DNA from: Streptomyces aurantiacus
GTDB lineage: Bacteria > Actinomycetota > Actinomycetes > Streptomycetales > Streptomycetaceae
Length of the DNA stretch: 64,000 nt
Assembly: GCF_027107535.1 (NCBI RefSeq)
Contig: NZ_CP114283.1
Span: 1,178,001 to 1,242,000, forward strand
Direction: 5' to 3'
Below the pieces are notes generated by a model. The model was not told the origin of the DNA, did not search any database, and saw nothing but the letters and a program-made list of their open reading frames with translations. Below are positions 36,468-60,664 of this stretch, piece by piece; the first letter of the stretch is position 1; each line of letters opens with the position of its first letter. The position numbers and the translations under genes are program-made.

Positions 36468-37268
36468 CTACGCCGACTCGTTCAGCAGCCGGGCAAGGTG
36501 CTCCCGGCCCGCCTCCAGCAGGTCCTCGAGCGGCGCGGCCGACTCGTACCAGCGCTTCTCGTACTCCCAGCACAGCCAGCCGTCCCAGCCCTCGCGGGAG
36601 AGCAGCTCGACGCACTCGGTGAGGGGCAGGACGCCCGCGCCGAGCGGCAGCGGAGTGGTGTCGTCGGCGGAGGCGATGTCCTTGACCTGGACGTAGCCGA
36701 GGAACGGGGACAGCGCGGCGTGACTGGCCGAGGGCTGCTCCCCGCCGAGCCAGGTGTGCATGACGTCCCAGAGGGAGCCCACCTGGCGGTGGCCGACGAG
36801 CCCGAGGACGCGGATCGCGTCGGCGCCCGTGCGGTGCGAGTCGTGGGTCTCCAGCAGGATCCGCACCCCCAGGTCCGCGGCGTACTCGGCCGCCGTGCCC
36901 AGGCGGCGCGCGGCCGTCGCGTCCGCCTCCTCGGGGCTCTGGTCGGGGTCGGCGCCGGGGAACACCCGGACGAAGGGGGCGCCCAGGTCCCGGGCCAGCT
37001 CGAGGAGTTCACGGATCTCGGCGATCACGGGTCCGTCGTCGCCCGGCGCCGCCACGCGGGTGTACCCGGCCAGGCCCAGGACCTCGACGCCCGCCGCCTT
37101 GAACTCGGCGGCCACGTCGGTCCGTGCGGTCAGGTCGAGGCCGGGGTGCACGGGCTCTTCGGGATGCGCGCGCAACTCGACACCGTGATAGCCGTGCGTG
37201 GCGGCGAGCCGCACCACGTCGCTGATCGGGAGTCCGGGTACACCGAGGGTGGAGAAGGCCAGTTTCAC
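36468..37268 (-). CDS. Sugar phosphate isomerase/epimerase (xylose isomerase-like TIM barrel)
   Basis: 266 residues from a GTG preceded by GAAGGTG. TIM barrel of the AP endonuclease 2 type: VKLAFSTLGVPGLPISDVVRLAATHGYHGVELRAHP, GVRILLETHDSHRTGADA (metal Glu and His), VGSLWDVMHTWLGGE (Asp/His) and WLCWEYEKRWY near the C-terminus (late Glu). Such proteins isomerise or epimerise sugars or act on 3-keto sugars with Gfo/Idh/MocA dehydrogenases. It is transcribed alone, toward the GH3 gene, and is separated by a repeat element from the LacI regulator. Substrate unknown. Confidence 0.82.
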   Translation of the reverse strand: MKLAFSTLGVPGLPISDVVRLAATHGYHGVELRAHPEEPVHPGLDLTARTDVAAEFKAAGVEVLGLAGYTRVAAPGDDGPVIAEIRELLELARDLGAPFVRVFPGADPDQSPEEADATAARRLGTAAEYAADLGVRILLETHDSHRTGADAIRVLGLVGHRQVGSLWDVMHTWLGGEQPSASHAALSPFLGYVQVKDIASADDTTPLPLGAGVLPLTECVELLSREGWDGWLCWEYEKRWYESAAPLEDLLEAGREHLARLLNESA

Positions 37269-37399
37269 GAAATCGCACCTTCGCTTTCGAGTTCCGGGCG
37301 CGGGTATTTCCGGCCGGGGGTCCCGGGGGTTCCCCCGGGACAGCACAGCATGAAACGGACCCTACCCGCCGCTCGTCGTCTGTCACTCCTGTGTGCCGT

Positions 37400-37693
37400 G
37401 GGGGTTCGGCTGCGGGTCTGTTTGGGCTGGTCGCGCTGTTCCTCGCGCCCCTGGGGTGTGTCTGTTGTTGTGGGTGGGGCGGGGCCGTGCCGGGGCATCC
37501 GATCGCAGCTGTGTCGTCCGGGGTTGTTCGGTTGCTCTGGAGAGGTCGTGCTGCGATCGGACGCCCCGGCCCGTCCCCTCGCGCCGGAGGGCGACCGACG
37601 GGAGAGGGGGGTGGCTGACGGAGGGGTGCCGCTGGGGACGCCCCTGGAGGGGGGCGGCCCTTTCAGGGGCGCGGGGAACTGCGCGACCAGCCC
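37400..37693 (+). repeat. 270-bp element, copy A (terminal inverted repeats plus internal hairpin)
   Basis: Terminal repeats of 30 bp lie at 37424-37453 and 37664-37693; they match in 28 of 30 positions after reverse complementing. Inside, 37490-37509 pairs with 37550-37569 (20 bp, one mismatch) around a 40-base loop. The 238-bp stretch 37400-37637 aligns without gaps with 55316-55553 (copy B) and with the reverse complement of 58190-58427 (copy C). The last 50 bp before the right terminal repeat differ from B and C. No credible gene; the apparent 75-100 aa frames arise from the shared DNA. Confidence 0.88.
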
Positions 37694-37743
37694 TCACGGC
37701 GGTGCACATATGAACTGGCCCCAGGCCGATCCCACCTTCAAGC

Positions 37744-37773
37744 AAGGGGCGCGGGGAACTGCGCGACCGGCCC
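37744..37773 (-). repeat. Solo copy of the terminal-repeat motif
   Basis: AAGGGGCGCGGGGAACTGCG followed by CGACCGGCCC lies 50 bp to the right of copy A, in the same orientation as its right end and 86 bp beyond the stop of the leftward LacI gene. Another degenerate version may follow near 37815. Confidence 0.75.
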
Positions 37774-37858
37774 CACGGCCGGTAGCCGACAAACGACCGC
37801 AAGCCCATCCCCTGGGGGCGCGGGCGGCTGAGCGACCGCGGCCCACAGGGGGCGGCGC

Positions 37859-38911
37859 TCAAGAAACCTTGGGCGCCCCGGTGGAGCCCCGAACCATCAG
37901 CTCCCCCCGAATCGTGGCGATCCCCCCGGGCGGAACCTCCTCCCGCCCCATGGCGATCCGCCCGGCCCGGGCCCCCGCGTCCGCCAACGGCAACCGCACG
38001 GTCGTCAGAGCGGGCACAGCGTCGATGCTGAAGGGCAGGTCGTCGAAGCCGACGACGGAGACGTCGTCCGGAATCCGCAGACCGGAGTCCCGCAGCGCGG
38101 CGCACGCGCCGAGAGCGACCGTGTCGTTGGCGGCCACGACAGCCGTCAGACCCGGTTCGCGGCGCAGGAGTTCGATCGTGGCCTCGTACCCCGCCCGGCG
38201 GTCGTAGCGGCCGTGGACCGTCAGGGCCGGGTCGTCCGGGATGCCGTGCGCGGCGAGCGCGTCCCGGTGGCCCTCCAGGCGGTGGCGGGTCGTGGTGCGC
38301 TCCTCCGGTCCCGCGATGTATCCCATGCGCCGATGGCCGAGGCCGATCAGGTGCTCGGTGAGCTGCTGTCCGCCGCCCCGGTTGTCGAAGGTGAGGGCCA
38401 CCGCGTCGGTGTCCGCCGGTGCGGGCGGCCGTCCGCACAGGACCACGCGCGTCCCCGCCTCCACGAGCTTGCGCAGCTTCGTCGCCACGGCCGTCGCGTG
38501 CGCGGTGTTCTCCACGGCCCCGCCCGTCAGCACCACCGCCGCGGCGCGCTGGCGCTGGAGGAGCGTGAGGTAGGTGAGTTCGCGCTCCGCGGAGCCGCCG
38601 GTGTTGCACACGACGGCGAGGCGCTCCCCGCCCGCACGGCCGCCCGGCCCTCCGATCTCGGACTGGATCGCCCCGGCCATGATCCCGAAGAACGGGTCGG
38701 CGATGTCGTTGACCAGGATGCCGACCAGGTCGGAGGTGGCGGCCGCGAGCGCGCTCGCGGGGCCGTTCAGTACGTAGTCCAGTTCGTCCACGGCCCGCAG
38801 CACCCGCTCGCGGGTGGAAGCCGCCACGGGGTAGTTCCCGTTCAGCACGCGCGACACCGTCGCGGGCGAGACCTGTGCGCGGGCCGCCACGTCCGCCAGG
38901 GTCACCGTCAT
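37859..38911 (-). CDS. LacI-family transcriptional regulator
   Basis: 350 residues. The N-terminal HTH is standard (VTLADVAARAQVSPATVSRVLNGNYPVAASTRERVLRAVDELDYV, residues 3-47), with the hinge at about 50-60 and a periplasmic-binding-protein-like effector domain (LVGILVNDIADPFFGIMAGAI, GLGHRRMGYIAGP, AVVAANDTVALGA, DVSVVGFDDLPFS). It is divergent from the oxidoreductase/DUF993/isomerase operon starting at 39329 and probably represses it. The sugar effector is unknown. Confidence 0.88.
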   Translation of the reverse strand: MTVTLADVAARAQVSPATVSRVLNGNYPVAASTRERVLRAVDELDYVLNGPASALAAATSDLVGILVNDIADPFFGIMAGAIQSEIGGPGGRAGGERLAVVCNTGGSAERELTYLTLLQRQRAAAVVLTGGAVENTAHATAVATKLRKLVEAGTRVVLCGRPPAPADTDAVALTFDNRGGGQQLTEHLIGLGHRRMGYIAGPEERTTTRHRLEGHRDALAAHGIPDDPALTVHGRYDRRAGYEATIELLRREPGLTAVVAANDTVALGACAALRDSGLRIPDDVSVVGFDDLPFSIDAVPALTTVRLPLADAGARAGRIAMGREEVPPGGIATIRGELMVRGSTGAPKVS

Positions 38912-42523: not shown

Positions 42524-42557
42524 GGAACGCCGACGGGAATTCGCCCGTCGGCGTTCC
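42524..42557. terminator. Terminator of the sugar operon
   Basis: GGAACGCCGACGGG (42524-42537) and CCCGTCGGCGTTCC (42544-42557) form a perfect 14-bp stem with a 6-base loop, 35 bp after the last stop codon. Confidence 0.88.
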
Positions 42558-42699
42558 GCTGTGCCCGATGAACAATGTCACCCGCCCCATATGTGACCGA
42601 ACATGGTGAATCCGGCCGTCGGTCGGCATGTGCCGCTCTGCCCTCCTCCTAGGCTCTGTCGTCGCATTGCCCGATATTGACCGAAGGCCGAACACACAC

Positions 42700-45600
42700 A
42701 TGCACATAGCCATACGCCGCGCGGCGGGCCTGACAGGGCTGGTCATCACGGCCACCCTGCTGCCGGCCGCCCCGGGGTCCGCGGCCCCGACGCCCGCAGA
42801 GGCGTCGACTCCCGCCGCCCGCCAGGCCGTCGACATGCCGTCGGCGCTCGCCGAGGCCCGAAGAACCGGCGCCCGCGTGGAGGCCCTGTCCGAGCGGACC
42901 GGAACCACCACCACGTGGGTGCACGACGACGGCTCACTCACCACCGAACTCACCGCAGGGCCCGTCCGGTTCGAGCGCGACGGCAGATGGGTCGCCGTCG
43001 ACACCGACCTCGCACGCCGCGCCGACGGCTCCGTGGCCGCCAAGGCCCACCCCGCCGACCTGACCCTCGCGGGCCGGGGCGGCGAGCCGGCCGGCTCCCT
43101 CGCCGAGTCCCGCGCCGCCGAGCCCCGCGACCTCGTCACGCTCGGCGAGGGCGACCGCCGCGTCACCCTGCAGTGGAAAGGCGGACTGCCGCAGCCCCGG
43201 CTCGACGGCAACCGCGCCGAGTACCAGGAGGCCGTCCCCGGCGCCGACGTGATCGTCGAGGCGACGAGGACCGGCTTCGAGCAGTACGTCGAGATCAACA
43301 AGCGCCCCCGCGAGGGCGCCTACCGCTACACCCTCCCGCTGCGCGCCAAGGGCCTGCGCGCGAAGCAACAGGCCGACGGCAGCGTGCGGTTCACCGACCG
43401 CAGGACCGGAGAGCGGCGGGCCGTGATGCCCGCGCCCGTGATGTGGGACTCGACCGTCGACGAGCGGTCCGGCGAGCACACCCGCCGGGTCCCGGTCGCC
43501 ATGAAGGTCGTCCAGAAGGGCTCCTCGCTCGACCTGGTGGTGACCCCGGACGCCCGCTTCCTCGCCGACCCGAAGACGCGCTACCCGGTCACCGTGGACC
43601 CCTCCACCTCCGCGCTGGGCAACCTCTTCGACACGTACGTCCAGCAGGGCGAGACCCGCGACTGGTCCACCGACACCGAACTGGACCTCGGCAACCCGGG
43701 CACGACGAACGCCGACGGGACGCCGCGCACCGCCCGGTCGTACATCACCTGGGGCACCGCCCCGATCGCGGACGCCCTGGTGAGCAGCGCCGAGCTGAGC
43801 CTGTGGAACTTCCACTCGGCGAACACCGACTGCAAACCGGCCGCGTGGGAGGTGTGGTCGGCCGACGAGGCCACCGCCGCCAGCCGCTGGACCAACCGGC
43901 CCGCGATGCGGACCAGATACGCCACGTCCACCGAGACCAAGGGCCGCGAGGGCTGCGGCGACGACGGCTGGATCAACGCCGACGTGACCGGCCTCGCGCA
44001 GGCCTGGGCCTCCGAGAAGGCACCGCGCGCCACCCTGGGCCTGCGGGCCGCCGACGAGTCCGCCGTCTCCCAGTGGAAGCGCGTCAACTCGGCCGACGCC
44101 ACCGCCAACCCGCCCAAGCTGACCGTGAGGTACAACTTCCGTCCCCGGTCCGGGAACAACCGGCAGGCGGGCCCGCCGTTCACCGCCGACGCCTCGGGCA
44201 CCTGGCAGGTCAACACGACCACGCCGACCCTGCGCGACACGTTCTCCGACAAGGACGGCGACCGGATCAACGGCACGTTCGAGATCGTCGAGGCGGTCTC
44301 CGGCAAGCGGGTGGGCGACCTCCTCGTCTCGCCGTTCGTCGAGTCCGGGCGGGCCGCCGCGGTGACCCTGCCGGACGGACTGCTGAAGGACGGCACGACC
44401 TACCGCTTCCGCACGAGCCCCTACGACGGCACGCACTTCAACACCGCCTGGTCGCAGTGGAGCACGTTCACCGTCTCCACCACCGGCCGCCCCAGTGGCC
44501 CCCCGGACATGCCGCAGGCCCTGGAGTCCGGCGCCACCAGGACGCTCACCCCGCTCCTGTCCGGGCTTGTCACGAGCCCCGCACAGGGCCGCGTACGGGC
44601 CGAGTTCGTCCTGCGCGACGAGGACGGCGGACCACTGCCCGGCGTGACGGTCCCCGAGGCGTGGGTGGACAGCGGACAGCGCGCCGCGGCCCAGGTCGCC
44701 GGCGGCGCGCTGAAGGACGGCACGACGTACCGATGGGCGATGCGCGCCTGCACCGACCTCGGCTGCTCCGCCTGGTCCTACGAGCAGGAGTTCACCGCAC
44801 GGGCCGCCGCGGACCCGGCGGCGCCGCAGACCCGTTCGCTGGTCCTGACCGGCGCCGCGCTCGACGACGCCACCGTGCCCGTCGGCGGCAAGGCGTGCCC
44901 CGAGGGCGGCGCCTGCCCGGCCGTCCGTGACACGAAGCTGACGCTCGGCGGGGCCGACGGCGAGCGGGTCGCCTGGCTCAGGCCGGACCTCACCAAGCTG
45001 CCTGCGGGTGCGCGGATCGCCAAGGCGCGGCTCGTCCTCAGCCCCGCGCAGCCCGGGCCACAGCGGCCGGTCGAGGTGTACGAACTCCTCGACCCCTGGA
45101 CGACCGCGCAGAAGGGCGGCGAACTGCTCACCGCGCTCGACGAGGCGCCCTTCGCCGACGCGGCGCCCCTGGCCGACCAGGATCTCGCCCCGGTCGTCCA
45201 GTCCTGGCTGGAGCAGGAGTCCGGCGAGGGGCTGGCCGTGCGCCTGCCCGCCGCCGAGCGCACCACCGGCGCCGCGTACCACTCGGCCCGGGCGGCGGAC
45301 ACCGCGCTGCGCCCGAAGCTGGAGATCGAGTACGTGGCGCCGACCGCGCCCGCCGCGCCCCAGAACGTACGGGTCACGCCCGGCGACGCCGGTCTGCTGG
45401 CCACCTGGAACGCGCCGAAGGACAACGGCTCGGCCGGTGACGGACCGCAGTACACGGCCGTCGTGACGAAGGCCGACGGTACCGAGGCGGCCCGGACGAC
45501 CGGCGCCGAACCGCGCGCCGTCGTGAGCGGCCTGGCCAACGGGACCGCCTACCGCGTCACCGTGACGGCCCGTACGGCACACGGCACGAGCCCGGCCGTC

Positions 45601-46701
45601 GGCGCCGAGCCGGTGACGACCGCCGCGGTTCCGGCCGGATCCGCCGCGTACCGGGAGATCGTGCGCCAGTACCTCGACGCGCGCGCCGGTCTCGTCACGG
45701 GCAGGCACACCACCGTCGCGGCCGCCCTCGCCGCGAGCCCCCACGCCGCGTCCTTCCAGGATCTGCTGCGGGCTCAGGCCCCCGGCCTGATCGAGAGCCG
45801 CGCGGCGCTGGCCCGGCACGGGAGCACCTACACGGACGCCACCGCGACACTCTCCGACGTGCTCGTCGGCACGGACGACAGCGGCACCGTGTTCCTGCGG
45901 GCGGCGGTCGACGAAAAGGCCGTCCTCAGGCAGGGCCCGGACGACACGACGGGCGAGACCGACGAGGGGAGCCAGGAACAGCGCTTCACCTTCAGCACCA
46001 ACGGCGGCGCCCCGATCCTCCACCTGGAGGCCGACGCCCCCGCCGCCGAGACGGTCCTCACGGAGTCGGCGTCCACCTGGCAGGGCCTCGACGTGGCCCC
46101 GCCCGAGGGACAGGACGCCGACGAGGTCCCCGACGAGCCGATCGCGCTCGACGCGGACGGCTTCCCCGTGGAGGAGCCCACCACGGTCCGGCAGGCGTCC
46201 GCCCTGCGCGCCAATGTCTCCGGGTCCGGTACGGCCAAGTGGGCCTCGAAGAACATCAAGACCAAGTGGGAGTACGGCCTGGACTGCACCAACTTCGTGT
46301 CCAAGGCCCTCTACTACGGCGGAAAGATGAAGACCCGGATGGGCGGCCGCAAGCACGACCGTGCCTGGTGGCAGCAGTACTACCTGTTCGGTTCGATCAA
46401 GAACAAGAGCTACACCTGGTCGGGCGCCGAGAACTTCCGGCGCCACATGACCAAGTACCGCAAGGCGCCGTCGGTGTCGAAGCGGAACGCCCGGGCCGGC
46501 GACATCGTCGTGTTCAAGTGGAAGAAGGAGAAGGTGTACAACCACGCGGCGGTCGTCGTCGGGAACAACGGCCGTGACCTCCAGCTCCGCCAGCACGGCG
46601 GCGTCAGCAAGACGACACTGAGCGCCGCCATCGCCCGCTACCGCCACAAGGCCAACTACATCGAGCGCGTGGTCATCCTCCGCCCGAAGTCGAGGAGCTG
46701 A
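42700..46701 (+). CDS. Large secreted DNRLRE/fibronectin-type protein with C-terminal amidase domain
   Basis: 1333 residues from the ATG at 42700 (GAAGG upstream). A signal peptide (RRAAGLTGLVITATLLPAAPGSAAP) is followed by beta-rich domains like those of teneurin/wall-associated proteins, two DNRLRE-type modules (about 290-480 and 720-870, each with a WSAD/LDPW-like strand and a C-terminal LTVRYN/LEIEYV end), Ig-like segments, an FN3 domain (APQNVRVTPGDAGLLATW, about 885-965) and a C-terminal papain-like amidase domain (Amidase_6): catalytic Cys1196 in YGLDCTNFVSKALYYGG, His1282 in YNHAAVVVGN. The C-terminal enzyme probably cuts an amide in peptidoglycan or protein. The lipoprotein gene begins 2 bp after its stop. 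Confidence 0.85.
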   Translation: MHIAIRRAAGLTGLVITATLLPAAPGSAAPTPAEASTPAARQAVDMPSALAEARRTGARVEALSERTGTTTTWVHDDGSLTTELTAGPVRFERDGRWVAVDTDLARRADGSVAAKAHPADLTLAGRGGEPAGSLAESRAAEPRDLVTLGEGDRRVTLQWKGGLPQPRLDGNRAEYQEAVPGADVIVEATRTGFEQYVEINKRPREGAYRYTLPLRAKGLRAKQQADGSVRFTDRRTGERRAVMPAPVMWDSTVDERSGEHTRRVPVAMKVVQKGSSLDLVVTPDARFLADPKTRYPVTVDPSTSALGNLFDTYVQQGETRDWSTDTELDLGNPGTTNADGTPRTARSYITWGTAPIADALVSSAELSLWNFHSANTDCKPAAWEVWSADEATAASRWTNRPAMRTRYATSTETKGREGCGDDGWINADVTGLAQAWASEKAPRATLGLRAADESAVSQWKRVNSADATANPPKLTVRYNFRPRSGNNRQAGPPFTADASGTWQVNTTTPTLRDTFSDKDGDRINGTFEIVEAVSGKRVGDLLVSPFVESGRAAAVTLPDGLLKDGTTYRFRTSPYDGTHFNTAWSQWSTFTVSTTGRPSGPPDMPQALESGATRTLTPLLSGLVTSPAQGRVRAEFVLRDEDGGPLPGVTVPEAWVDSGQRAAAQVAGGALKDGTTYRWAMRACTDLGCSAWSYEQEFTARAAADPAAPQTRSLVLTGAALDDATVPVGGKACPEGGACPAVRDTKLTLGGADGERVAWLRPDLTKLPAGARIAKARLVLSPAQPGPQRPVEVYELLDPWTTAQKGGELLTALDEAPFADAAPLADQDLAPVVQSWLEQESGEGLAVRLPAAERTTGAAYHSARAADTALRPKLEIEYVAPTAPAAPQNVRVTPGDAGLLATWNAPKDNGSAGDGPQYTAVVTKADGTEAARTTGAEPRAVVSGLANGTAYRVTVTARTAHGTSPAVGAEPVTTAAVPAGSAAYREIVRQYLDARAGLVTGRHTTVAAALAASPHAASFQDLLRAQAPGLIESRAALARHGSTYTDATATLSDVLVGTDDSGTVFLRAAVDEKAVLRQGPDDTTGETDEGSQEQRFTFSTNGGAPILHLEADAPAAETVLTESASTWQGLDVAPPEGQDADEVPDEPIALDADGFPVEEPTTVRQASALRANVSGSGTAKWASKNIKTKWEYGLDCTNFVSKALYYGGKMKTRMGGRKHDRAWWQQYYLFGSIKNKSYTWSGAENFRRHMTKYRKAPSVSKRNARAGDIVVFKWKKEKVYNHAAVVVGNNGRDLQLRQHGGVSKTTLSAAIARYRHKANYIERVVILRPKSRS

Positions 46702-46703
46702 TC

Positions 46704-47210
46704 ATGAGGCGAATGCTGCTGGGGTGCGCGCTGGCCACCGGGGCCCTGCTGACCGTCACGGCCTGTTCGTCCGACGACACCCTGTCGGCCTACCAGAGCG
46801 ACTACACGGGGCACGAGCCGCTGCACGTCGTCGGCTATCCGTCCACGGGCAGCCTGGGCGTCGTCCAGAAGGCCGTCTGGCTGCTCGCCGACGGTGACAC
46901 CGACGCGCTCGCGGACCTGGCCGCGGAGGACGGGTCCGCCGAGGAGACCGCCCGCAACTGGGTCAAGACCTTCGGCAAGGGCGCGGAGGGCGAGGTCACC
47001 GCGGACTTCTACGACGAGGGCTCGACCCGCCAGACCGTGGTCCTCTACTTCGCGACGTCCCGGCAGACCAAGGAGATCACCGCACGGCTGGGCGAGGACG
47101 ACGCCTGGCGGATCGTCCTGGACGAGCCGGACCCGAAGGACGCCTCCGCGAAGCCGGACTGGGCCCCCGCCGAACCGGGTGGCACGGGATCCAAAAGCAC
47201 GGGCGGCTAG
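46704..47210 (+). CDS. Lipoprotein encoded with the amidase protein (possible immunity or partner)
   Basis: 168 residues. Signal with lipobox VTAC (Cys21), then a single alpha/beta domain: YPSTGSLGVVQKAVWLLADGDTDALADLAAEDGSAEETARNWVKTFG, VTADFYDEGSTRQTVVLYFATSRQTKEITARLGEDDAWRIVLDEPDP, an arrangement like NTF2/DUF4878-type lipoproteins, and a disordered tail. The start lies 2 bp beyond the amidase gene stop, with the ribosome binding site inside it (GAGGAG), so the two are co-translated. A role as anchor, chaperone or immunity protein for the amidase is inference. Confidence 0.75.
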   Translation: MRRMLLGCALATGALLTVTACSSDDTLSAYQSDYTGHEPLHVVGYPSTGSLGVVQKAVWLLADGDTDALADLAAEDGSAEETARNWVKTFGKGAEGEVTADFYDEGSTRQTVVLYFATSRQTKEITARLGEDDAWRIVLDEPDPKDASAKPDWAPAEPGGTGSKSTGG

Positions 47211-47241
47211 CCCGTACACCCGGAGAGCCCCTGGTGCGCCG

Positions 47242-55315: not shown

Positions 55316-55612
55316 GGGGGTTCGGCTGCGGGGTTGTTTGGGCTGGTCGCGCTGTTCCTCGCGCCCCTGGGGTGTGTCTGTTGTTGTGGGTGGGGCGGGG
55401 CCGTGCCGGGGCATCCGATCGCAGCTGTGTCGTCCGGGGTTGTTCGGTTGCTCTGGAGAGGTCGTGCTGCGATCGGACGCCCCGGCCCGTCCCCTCGCGC
55501 CGGAGGGCGACCGACGGGAGAGGGGGGTGGCTGACGGAGGGGTGCCGCTGGGGGGCGATCCCCGCCGAGGGGGCGGCCCTTGAAGGGGCGCGGGGAACTG
55601 CCCGACCAGCCC
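55316..55612 (+). repeat. 270-bp element, copy B
   Basis: Terminal repeats at 55340-55369 and 55583-55612; internal arms 55406-55425 and 55466-55485. It has the same core as copy A, and over about 320 bp differs from the reverse complement of copy C in only about four substitutions and one 4-bp indel near the outer end. It shares with C the variant CTGCCCGACC (instead of CTGCGCGACC) in the right terminal repeat, so B and C are the closest pair. It lies between the rbs operators and the helicase gene. Confidence 0.9.
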
Positions 55613-58130: not shown

Positions 58131-58427
58131 GGGCTGGTCGGGCAGTTCCCCGCGCCCCTGAAAGGGCCGCCCCCTCGGCGGGGATCGCCCCCCAGCGGCA
58201 CCCCTCCGTCAGCCACCCCCCTCTCCCGTCGGTCGCCCTCCGGCGCGAGGGGACGGGCCGGGGCGTCCGATCGCAGCACGACCTCTCCAGAGCAACCGAA
58301 CAACCCCGGACGACACAGCTGCGATCGGATGCCCCGGCACGGCCCCGCCCCACCCACAACAACAGACACACCCCAGGGGCGCGAGGAACAGCGCGACCAG
58401 CCCAAACAGACCCGCAGCCGAACCCCC
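58131..58427 (-). repeat. 270-bp element, copy C (inverted relative to A and B)
   Basis: Terminal repeats at 58131-58160 and 58374-58403; internal arms 58258-58277 and 58318-58337 by correspondence with copy B. The core 58190-58427 is the reverse complement of A's 37400-37637 with no gap. It lies between the helicase stop and the citrate synthase leader. The similarity to B extends beyond both terminal repeats. Confidence 0.88.
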
Positions 58428-60170: not shown

Positions 60171-60222
60171 GGAAGGCGCCCCGCTGCCGGTCCCCCCACG
60201 GGCCGGAGTCGGGGCGCCTTCC
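60171..60222. terminator. Third hairpin after citA
   Basis: GGAAGGCGCCCCG (60171-60183) and CGGGGCGCCTTCC (60210-60222) form a perfect 13-bp stem; the loop holds a smaller CCGG/CCGG stem. It could terminate either citA or read-through from the leftward copA direction. Confidence 0.82.
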
Positions 60223-60664
60223 CGTGTCCCGGTGCGGATTCCCCCCACGGGATCCGGCCGGGCGTCTGAAGGCAGCGCCTGAATCGCTGCGAGCAAAACG
60301 AGCAAAAACGACGATAGCTCTACGTACTGCTGTGCGGTCTGCCGGGACCCGTACGTACGGGAGGGCCGCTCAAAGCTCCCCGCCGTACGTGCCCCGGCAA
60401 CGCAATTCCGAGAACGTCCCCCAAGACGTCCTCAGATGCCAGAAACGCCCCCCAAGACGCCTCTGACATCGTCAATCTAGACTCACGAACCCCTTCAATG
60501 GTTACGTTCGCATCACTGTGATCTGCGTCTCTTGTGTATGTCCTGAAGATGCACAAGAGACCCGATATGACTATCGGAGCCCTAGCGTAAGGAAGATGCG
60601 CGAGCCTTGTGAAGAGCTTATGTGAAGGCGTGTGCCGGACTCTAGGGGGACTCCTGCCTCTTCG
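60223..60664. other. Intergenic region of lower GC with direct repeats; one possible small ORF
   Basis: About 440 bp between the third hairpin and the end of copA. An imperfect direct repeat AACG(T/C)CCCCCAAGACG lies at 60413-60429 and 60444-60460 (period 31). A minus-strand frame of 49 codons (ATG 60469, stop 60320) covers it; its start lacks a ribosome binding site but follows TAGATT, so a leaderless gene is conceivable. I do not recognise the peptide and give it low weight. Confidence 0.3.

Follow-up and report, generated by a model that had tools for sequence, protein, structure and literature searches.

Three near-identical intergenic elements lie in the window analysed here, a stretch of 64,000 nt from Streptomyces aurantiacus, and on balance each is best read as a REPIN-like palindrome in which two inverted REP-like repeats enclose, in the loop, a cassette of about 210 bp that bears a nested inverted repeat of its own. 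The elements are called copies A, B and C, the cassette is also called the core, and the S. aurantiacus genome is designated G000. The parts of copy A and the positions of the other copies in the window are as follows.

37400-37693, plus strand: copy A, the whole element
37424..37453, minus (the strand that reads as the REP consensus): left arm of copy A, a REP-like repeat unit, recognised as an inverted repeat and by repeat family
37454..37663, plus: cassette (core) of copy A between the REP arms, delimited by the inverted repeats and by comparison of copies
37481..37509, plus: 5′ arm of the nested hairpin of copy A (inverted repeat)
37499..37560, plus: 62-bp motif of copy A, constant in length, with invariant 12-bp arms and a 40-nt loop with a variable centre (copy alignment)
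37550..37578, plus: 3′ arm of the nested hairpin of copy A (inverted repeat)
37664..37693, plus: right arm of copy A, a REP-like repeat unit, recognised by repeat family and as an inverted repeat
37745..37773, plus: extra REP unit in the same orientation as the right arm, between copy A and the lacI-type gene
37398..37637, plus: ungapped 240-bp tract common to the three copies
55316..55612, plus: copy C, with its 62-bp motif at 55415-55476
58131..58427, minus: copy B, with its 62-bp motif at 58267-58328

The original prediction of three near-identical copies at 37.4, 55.3 and 58.1 kb was borne out: over the 240-bp tract copies A and B have 0 differences, and copies A and C have 2, which are adjacent to each other. 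Outer inverted repeats of about 30 bp had also been described correctly, the arms of copy A being 30 nt long, 93% complementary and spaced 210 nt apart. The 40-base loop of the inner inverted repeat was likewise found, but the repeat itself was larger than the 20 bp claimed, with arms of 29 nt that are 90% complementary and of which the loop-proximal 12 bp are perfect. As DNA, this inner hairpin was 5.45 sd under 200 dinucleotide shuffles, with 0/200 equally good. Exact matches to the half-site formed by the 12-bp arms numbered 6 in the window, all within the three elements, and single half-sites with up to 2 mismatches gave 11 matches there against 14.6 expected. In the copies with a recognised arm, the hairpin is 46-50 bp from the left arm and 61-107 bp from the right arm. 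A fourth copy, D, was found in the same genome (G000:C2:9007042-9007233, 81% identity over query positions 8-196); its right arm was not recognised in the arm search around copies.

The outer arms belong to a repeat that is far more widespread than the element. With up to 3 mismatches, the 27-mer consensus of the arm matched 217 places in G000 and its reversed control none, and a 20-mer with up to 1 mismatch was present in 35 of 61 genomes of the genus (1 to 867 places) and absent from the other 26, the reversed control giving a single match in each of two genomes. Compact inverted pairs of the repeat, with no more than 30 nt between the units, were found in 6/6 genomes searched (54 in G128, 40 in G109, 29 in S. 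phaeochromogenes, 22 in G032 and 4 each in G000 and Streptomyces sp. BV286; reversed controls 0). The 30-nt unit folds at -13.3 kcal/mol around CGCG/CGCG, a single value without a shuffle control. The arms are thus a short, high-copy intergenic repeat and by anatomy a REP/REPIN-like family; the elements in the window are by orientation inverted REP pairs, with a spacer of 210 nt or longer, unlike the short spacer of a REPIN. REP copy number is very uneven across the genus. Only 5 of the best 100 of the 217 places in G000 lie between 3.0 and 6.1 Mb, and judged from these best 100 the repeat seems to be concentrated in the chromosome arms. In G032 and G393, a number of the compact REP palindromes enclose a loop that is itself palindromic, for instance around AGGTACCT, and nesting may be a general feature of the repeat.

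Sites without the core show the relation between arms and core. Loci D and B were aligned in 30 genomes each, and the core was present in two in each case (G000 and G128). At each of these loci G109 has REPs paired in inverted orientation but no core, the loop being 3 nt at B and about 24 nt at D; therefore, the core is a cassette in the loop of a REP palindrome. It lies between CGCGCCCCT and AGGGGCGCG, exactly at the loop position of the core-free palindromes. The palindromes of G109 fit an insertion after CGCGCCCCT, and the CCCCT repeat at both junctions is indistinguishable from the REP palindrome, so that no clean target-site duplication could be read at the junctions. In G032 neither REP nor core is present at B or D. 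In a tree of a single gene, the one upstream of D, G032 and G109 group as sisters with G000 and BV286, and G128 and S. phaeochromogenes fall outside; therefore, the core was either lost in the line of G032 and G109 or entered D more than once. A further locus of G128, E, corresponds to a single REP without the core in G000. At locus C of G128 the element is replaced by a segment that carries a Y1 transposase, and the locus therefore offers no clean empty site; in this segment (L111:2465-5169) the Y1 transposase and a gene that is TnpB-like by eye stand in place of the ABC gene, the lacI-type gene and the element. Separately, BV286 and G128 both lack, at the corresponding place, the segment at 42540-47229 of the window, which contains an ORF of 1357 aa (42628-46701); this lineage has probably gained it recently by insertion.

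As far as searched, the cassette of about 210 bp is confined to four genomes. The exact hairpin pattern was found in 2/295 genomes of the genus (4 sites in G000 and 6 in G128), and a covariance model matched the same two of 392; these samples were drawn from a larger group, and the model search applies stricter filters to sets of over 40 genomes. In GTDB 220, an exact pattern of 18 bases, which misses diverged copies, hit Streptomyces sp. BV286 and S. phaeochromogenes NRRL B-1248 three times each, and it also occurred in two unrelated genomes without the second arm, which are chance matches. Run on the four genomes, the covariance model gave 4 copies in G000, 6 in G128 and 3 each in BV286 and S. 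phaeochromogenes, that is, 16 copies, of which two are cut by contig ends. The search of these genomes for diverged copies of the hairpin gave only two extra weak matches (E 0.21 and 0.45).

Hairpin-centred slices of 122 bases from the 16 copies align without gaps and have 46 variable columns. The 12-bp inner arms are invariant in 16/16 copies, and within the loop the variable columns are concentrated at the centre (1/10 at columns 42-51, 10/12 at 52-63, 6/10 at 64-73 and 0/8 at 74-81). The inner arms do not vary whereas the loop centre and flanks do, which argues for selection on the sequence. In line with this, differences between G000 and G128 were fewer in the conserved blocks than in the rest at D (4/56 versus 18/66, p 0.004), B (2/56 versus 26/66, p 1e-6) and A (3/56 versus 28/66, p 2e-6), p-values that are optimistic because the blocks were delimited after viewing the alignment.

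The same alignment bears on the structured RNA raised in the original prediction, taken here as a non-coding regulatory RNA or sRNA transcribed through the nested hairpin, a possibility that we consider unlikely. The whole element does fold very stably as RNA (z -7.14), segments of the loop are conserved, extra loop-adjacent U-G pairs form on the plus strand, and the covariation score was reached by only 7/500 shuffles and the count of paired cells by 12/500. Against this, 28/46 pairs never vary, and a two-sided change was found in 4/46 pairs, a number matched by 266/500 shuffles and by a slide of +2; RNAalifold found such a change in 0/32 pairs. The reverse strand folds better in 11/16 copies. 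No Rfam family covers the element at its gathering score, and a relaxed threshold brought up two microRNA families that were far below theirs. No sigma-70-like promoter was found in 37200-37900 by a scan that covers few Streptomyces promoters. The stem is thus almost without covariation, which favours a sequence-specific constraint on the DNA over RNA structure. Elsewhere in the window, 60202-60264 (minus strand) matches the Streptomyces sRNA Scr2736 in Rfam with 80.2 bits (gathering score 43).

The positions of the copies are not new. Locus D is occupied in all four genomes, locus B is common to G000 and G128 with the same orientation, and loci A and C are common to G000 and BV286. At A, the element of G128 adjoins the same lacI-type gene in the opposite orientation, and judging from gene order S. 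phaeochromogenes probably also has the inverted A element, although the contig ends there. In G128, an IS110-family transposase gene (L110:7766-9013, minus strand) is found at a distance of about 1 kb from this inverted element. Within G000, copies A, B and C differ at 0/122 columns. Within BV286, A and C also differ at 0/122, an identity that could be an assembly effect in that the two copies are at opposite ends of a single short-read contig, and the A and C orthologues of G000 and BV286 differ at 7/122. The copies of S. phaeochromogenes have 5-7 differences within the genome versus 9-13 from the G128 orthologues, which fits concerted evolution. Copy A of G128 shows no clear clustering by genome, with 11-16 differences from its own paralogues and 13 from copy A of S. 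phaeochromogenes. Copy D clusters by locus in G000 and BV286, with 8 differences between the species versus 22 to copy A within G000.

Because the loci are found across species and yet the copies are most alike within each genome, the likeness of A, B and C points to concerted evolution, which would act through gene conversion and in which copy D of G000 and BV286 does not join. The likeness thus looks to have come from copies overwriting one another rather than from recent jumping. Of the causes put forward in the original prediction, gene conversion or selection fits the homogenised copies and the invariant arms, whereas recent movement does not agree with the presence of A, B, C and D at loci common to other species.

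The same observations weigh on a further view, quite unlikely in our judgement, that the element is a recently transposed MITE whose terminal inverted repeats are the outer arms. It is short and non-coding, with inverted ends and several loci; locus E of G128 without its core counterpart in G000, and the opposite orientations at A in two lineages, would also suit a mobile element. However, the presumed terminal repeats are not proper to the element, the arms being a genome-wide repeat that occurs 217 times on its own in G000, and the homogenised copies within a genome are not nested by age. No target-site duplication is distinguishable from the palindrome, and no linked transposase was found. 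Whole genomes were searched for the core, the arms and Y1_Tnp, and a parent transposon was sought in phages, plasmids and viral contigs. The core gave 0 matches in phages and 0 in viral contigs, with one arm match and two short weak matches in plasmids, and no parent element was found in the three collections; as far as these show, an origin from a phage, plasmid or virus was rejected.

That the element is retained at each locus as a transcription terminator, or as a hairpin protecting mRNA, is in our judgement very unlikely. The hairpins are very stable, copies B and D follow the 3′ ends of genes, and 3 terminator-like sites were found in 37200-37900 compared with 0.4 expected; therefore, the REP arms may have a role in termination. 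However, copy C is located upstream of two divergent genes, between their starts, the elements are rich in G+C and lack long T runs, and a terminator needs neither an invariant arm sequence nor a conserved loop of fixed length.

It is highly improbable that a REP-associated tyrosine (Y1) transposase moves the element as an active REPIN. REPs paired in inverted orientation are common, as the compact pairs described above show, and Y1 matches were found in G128 (6) and S. phaeochromogenes (5), but there was no match to Y1_Tnp (PF01797) in G000 or BV286. Among 30 further genomes, Y1 was present in 5/15 REP-rich and 2/15 REP-free ones (p 0.39), the latter 15 being taken from the 26 found and G109 being counted as REP-rich from its palindromes; G059, with 867 REP places, has no Y1 match. 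With neither a Y1_Tnp match nor an association of REP with Y1, RAYT-driven movement in G000 was rejected.

The chance that the copies reflect a segmental duplication or a conserved coding sequence, the two circumstances that would have undone the original prediction, is negligible: although A, B and C lie within 21 kb, and none of the three plus frames has a stop within the 122-bp core in any of the 16 copies (the three minus frames have stops in 7, 8 and 9), there is a fourth copy, the flanks of A, B and C are unrelated outside the common tract except for a short stretch common to B and C upstream, the neighbouring genes differ, the hairpin-arm spacers vary by non-multiples of three, and the 46 variable columns are spread evenly over codon positions (17/17/12), so that both duplication and coding were rejected and the statement that the element is not a gene was upheld, mainly by this even spread. 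Copy A is flanked by genes for a xylose-isomerase-like protein and a LacI-type regulator, C by LacI-type and RecD2 genes, B by RecD2 and citrate synthase, and D by a CoA ligase and an enoyl-CoA hydratase; three of the G128 loci have as neighbours a VWA protein, a Ser/Thr kinase with PQQ repeats, and glutaminase/fumarase. A common regulon was rejected, since the neighbours that were scanned and matched are unlike.

For the reading that we favour, a cassette in the loop of a REP palindrome, the following course of events may be proposed. The invariant half-sites TCCGATCGCAGC, inverted and at a fixed outer spacing of 62 bp, would be read as DNA by a sequence-specific protein, and the motif would most likely mark the end of a non-autonomous element or serve as its recombination site. 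This element would have entered REP loops before the lineages split, and it would no longer move in G000. The inverted REP arms could let homologous recombination copy the core between loci and flip it, and the identity of A, B and C would then be maintained by gene conversion. At locus A, the core may have been flipped by recombination between the inverted arms, or it may have been inserted there twice. A broader proposal, which is tentative and on the whole rather unlikely, is that these elements represent a type of bacterial repeat able to spread and to remain uniform with no transposase of its own, in which the REP palindrome would serve as a recombination dock and the cassette, with its protein-read inverted site, would be copied from dock to dock and flipped by homologous recombination of the host.

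The closest known kinds of element are REPINs and the insertion sequences that target REPs. REP sequences were reportedly described by Higgins in 1988 as evolving by gene conversion; there too, dispersed palindromic repeats would be kept alike in one genome, but the homogenisation seen here extends over a 240-bp composite and not over one REP. MITEs share with the present element a short, non-coding form with inverted ends at several loci and differ in that its ends are an independent genome-wide repeat, its loci are old and a parent transposon was not found. The insertion sequence IS1397 enters the loop of the REP palindrome, and IS110-family elements such as IS621 target REPs. Similar to the cassette, the REP-targeting insertion sequences IS1397, ISKpn1 and IS621 (as given in part of PMC1525189) are separate DNA segments inside a REP palindrome; in contrast to them, the cassette has no transposase gene and no duplication distinguishable from the palindrome. 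A REPIN, in passages of Bertels and Rainey (2011, PMC3116915), consists of two inverted REPs, and the agreement with these passages lies in two short, high-copy, extragenic inverted repeats with a less conserved spacer in intergenic DNA. The present element differs in that its spacer is about 210 bp, not short, and holds a second, better conserved inverted repeat, and in that no Y1 transposase was detectable in G000 and REP abundance was not linked to Y1 in 30 Streptomyces genomes. Other papers on REPs, in the portions consulted, do not name Streptomyces in the main text (PMC3733652 and PMC12306157), name it only in a reference (PMC1590033) or treat the REPs of E. coli (PMC4681348). In the literature covered, a text search with the REP and core strings gave no match; the topic listings took in some of the matching papers, and a paper on this REP-like repeat may exist.

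Taken together, these results point in Streptomyces to a large REP/REPIN family, with 0 to 867 copies per genome among 61 genomes, that is unexplained by Y1 transposases. Identity among dispersed intergenic elements need not signal recent transposition. The rare invariant 62-bp motif carries a prediction of DNA binding that can be tested, and the combination of old loci with sameness within a genome offers a small natural system in which to measure gene conversion in the Streptomyces chromosome.
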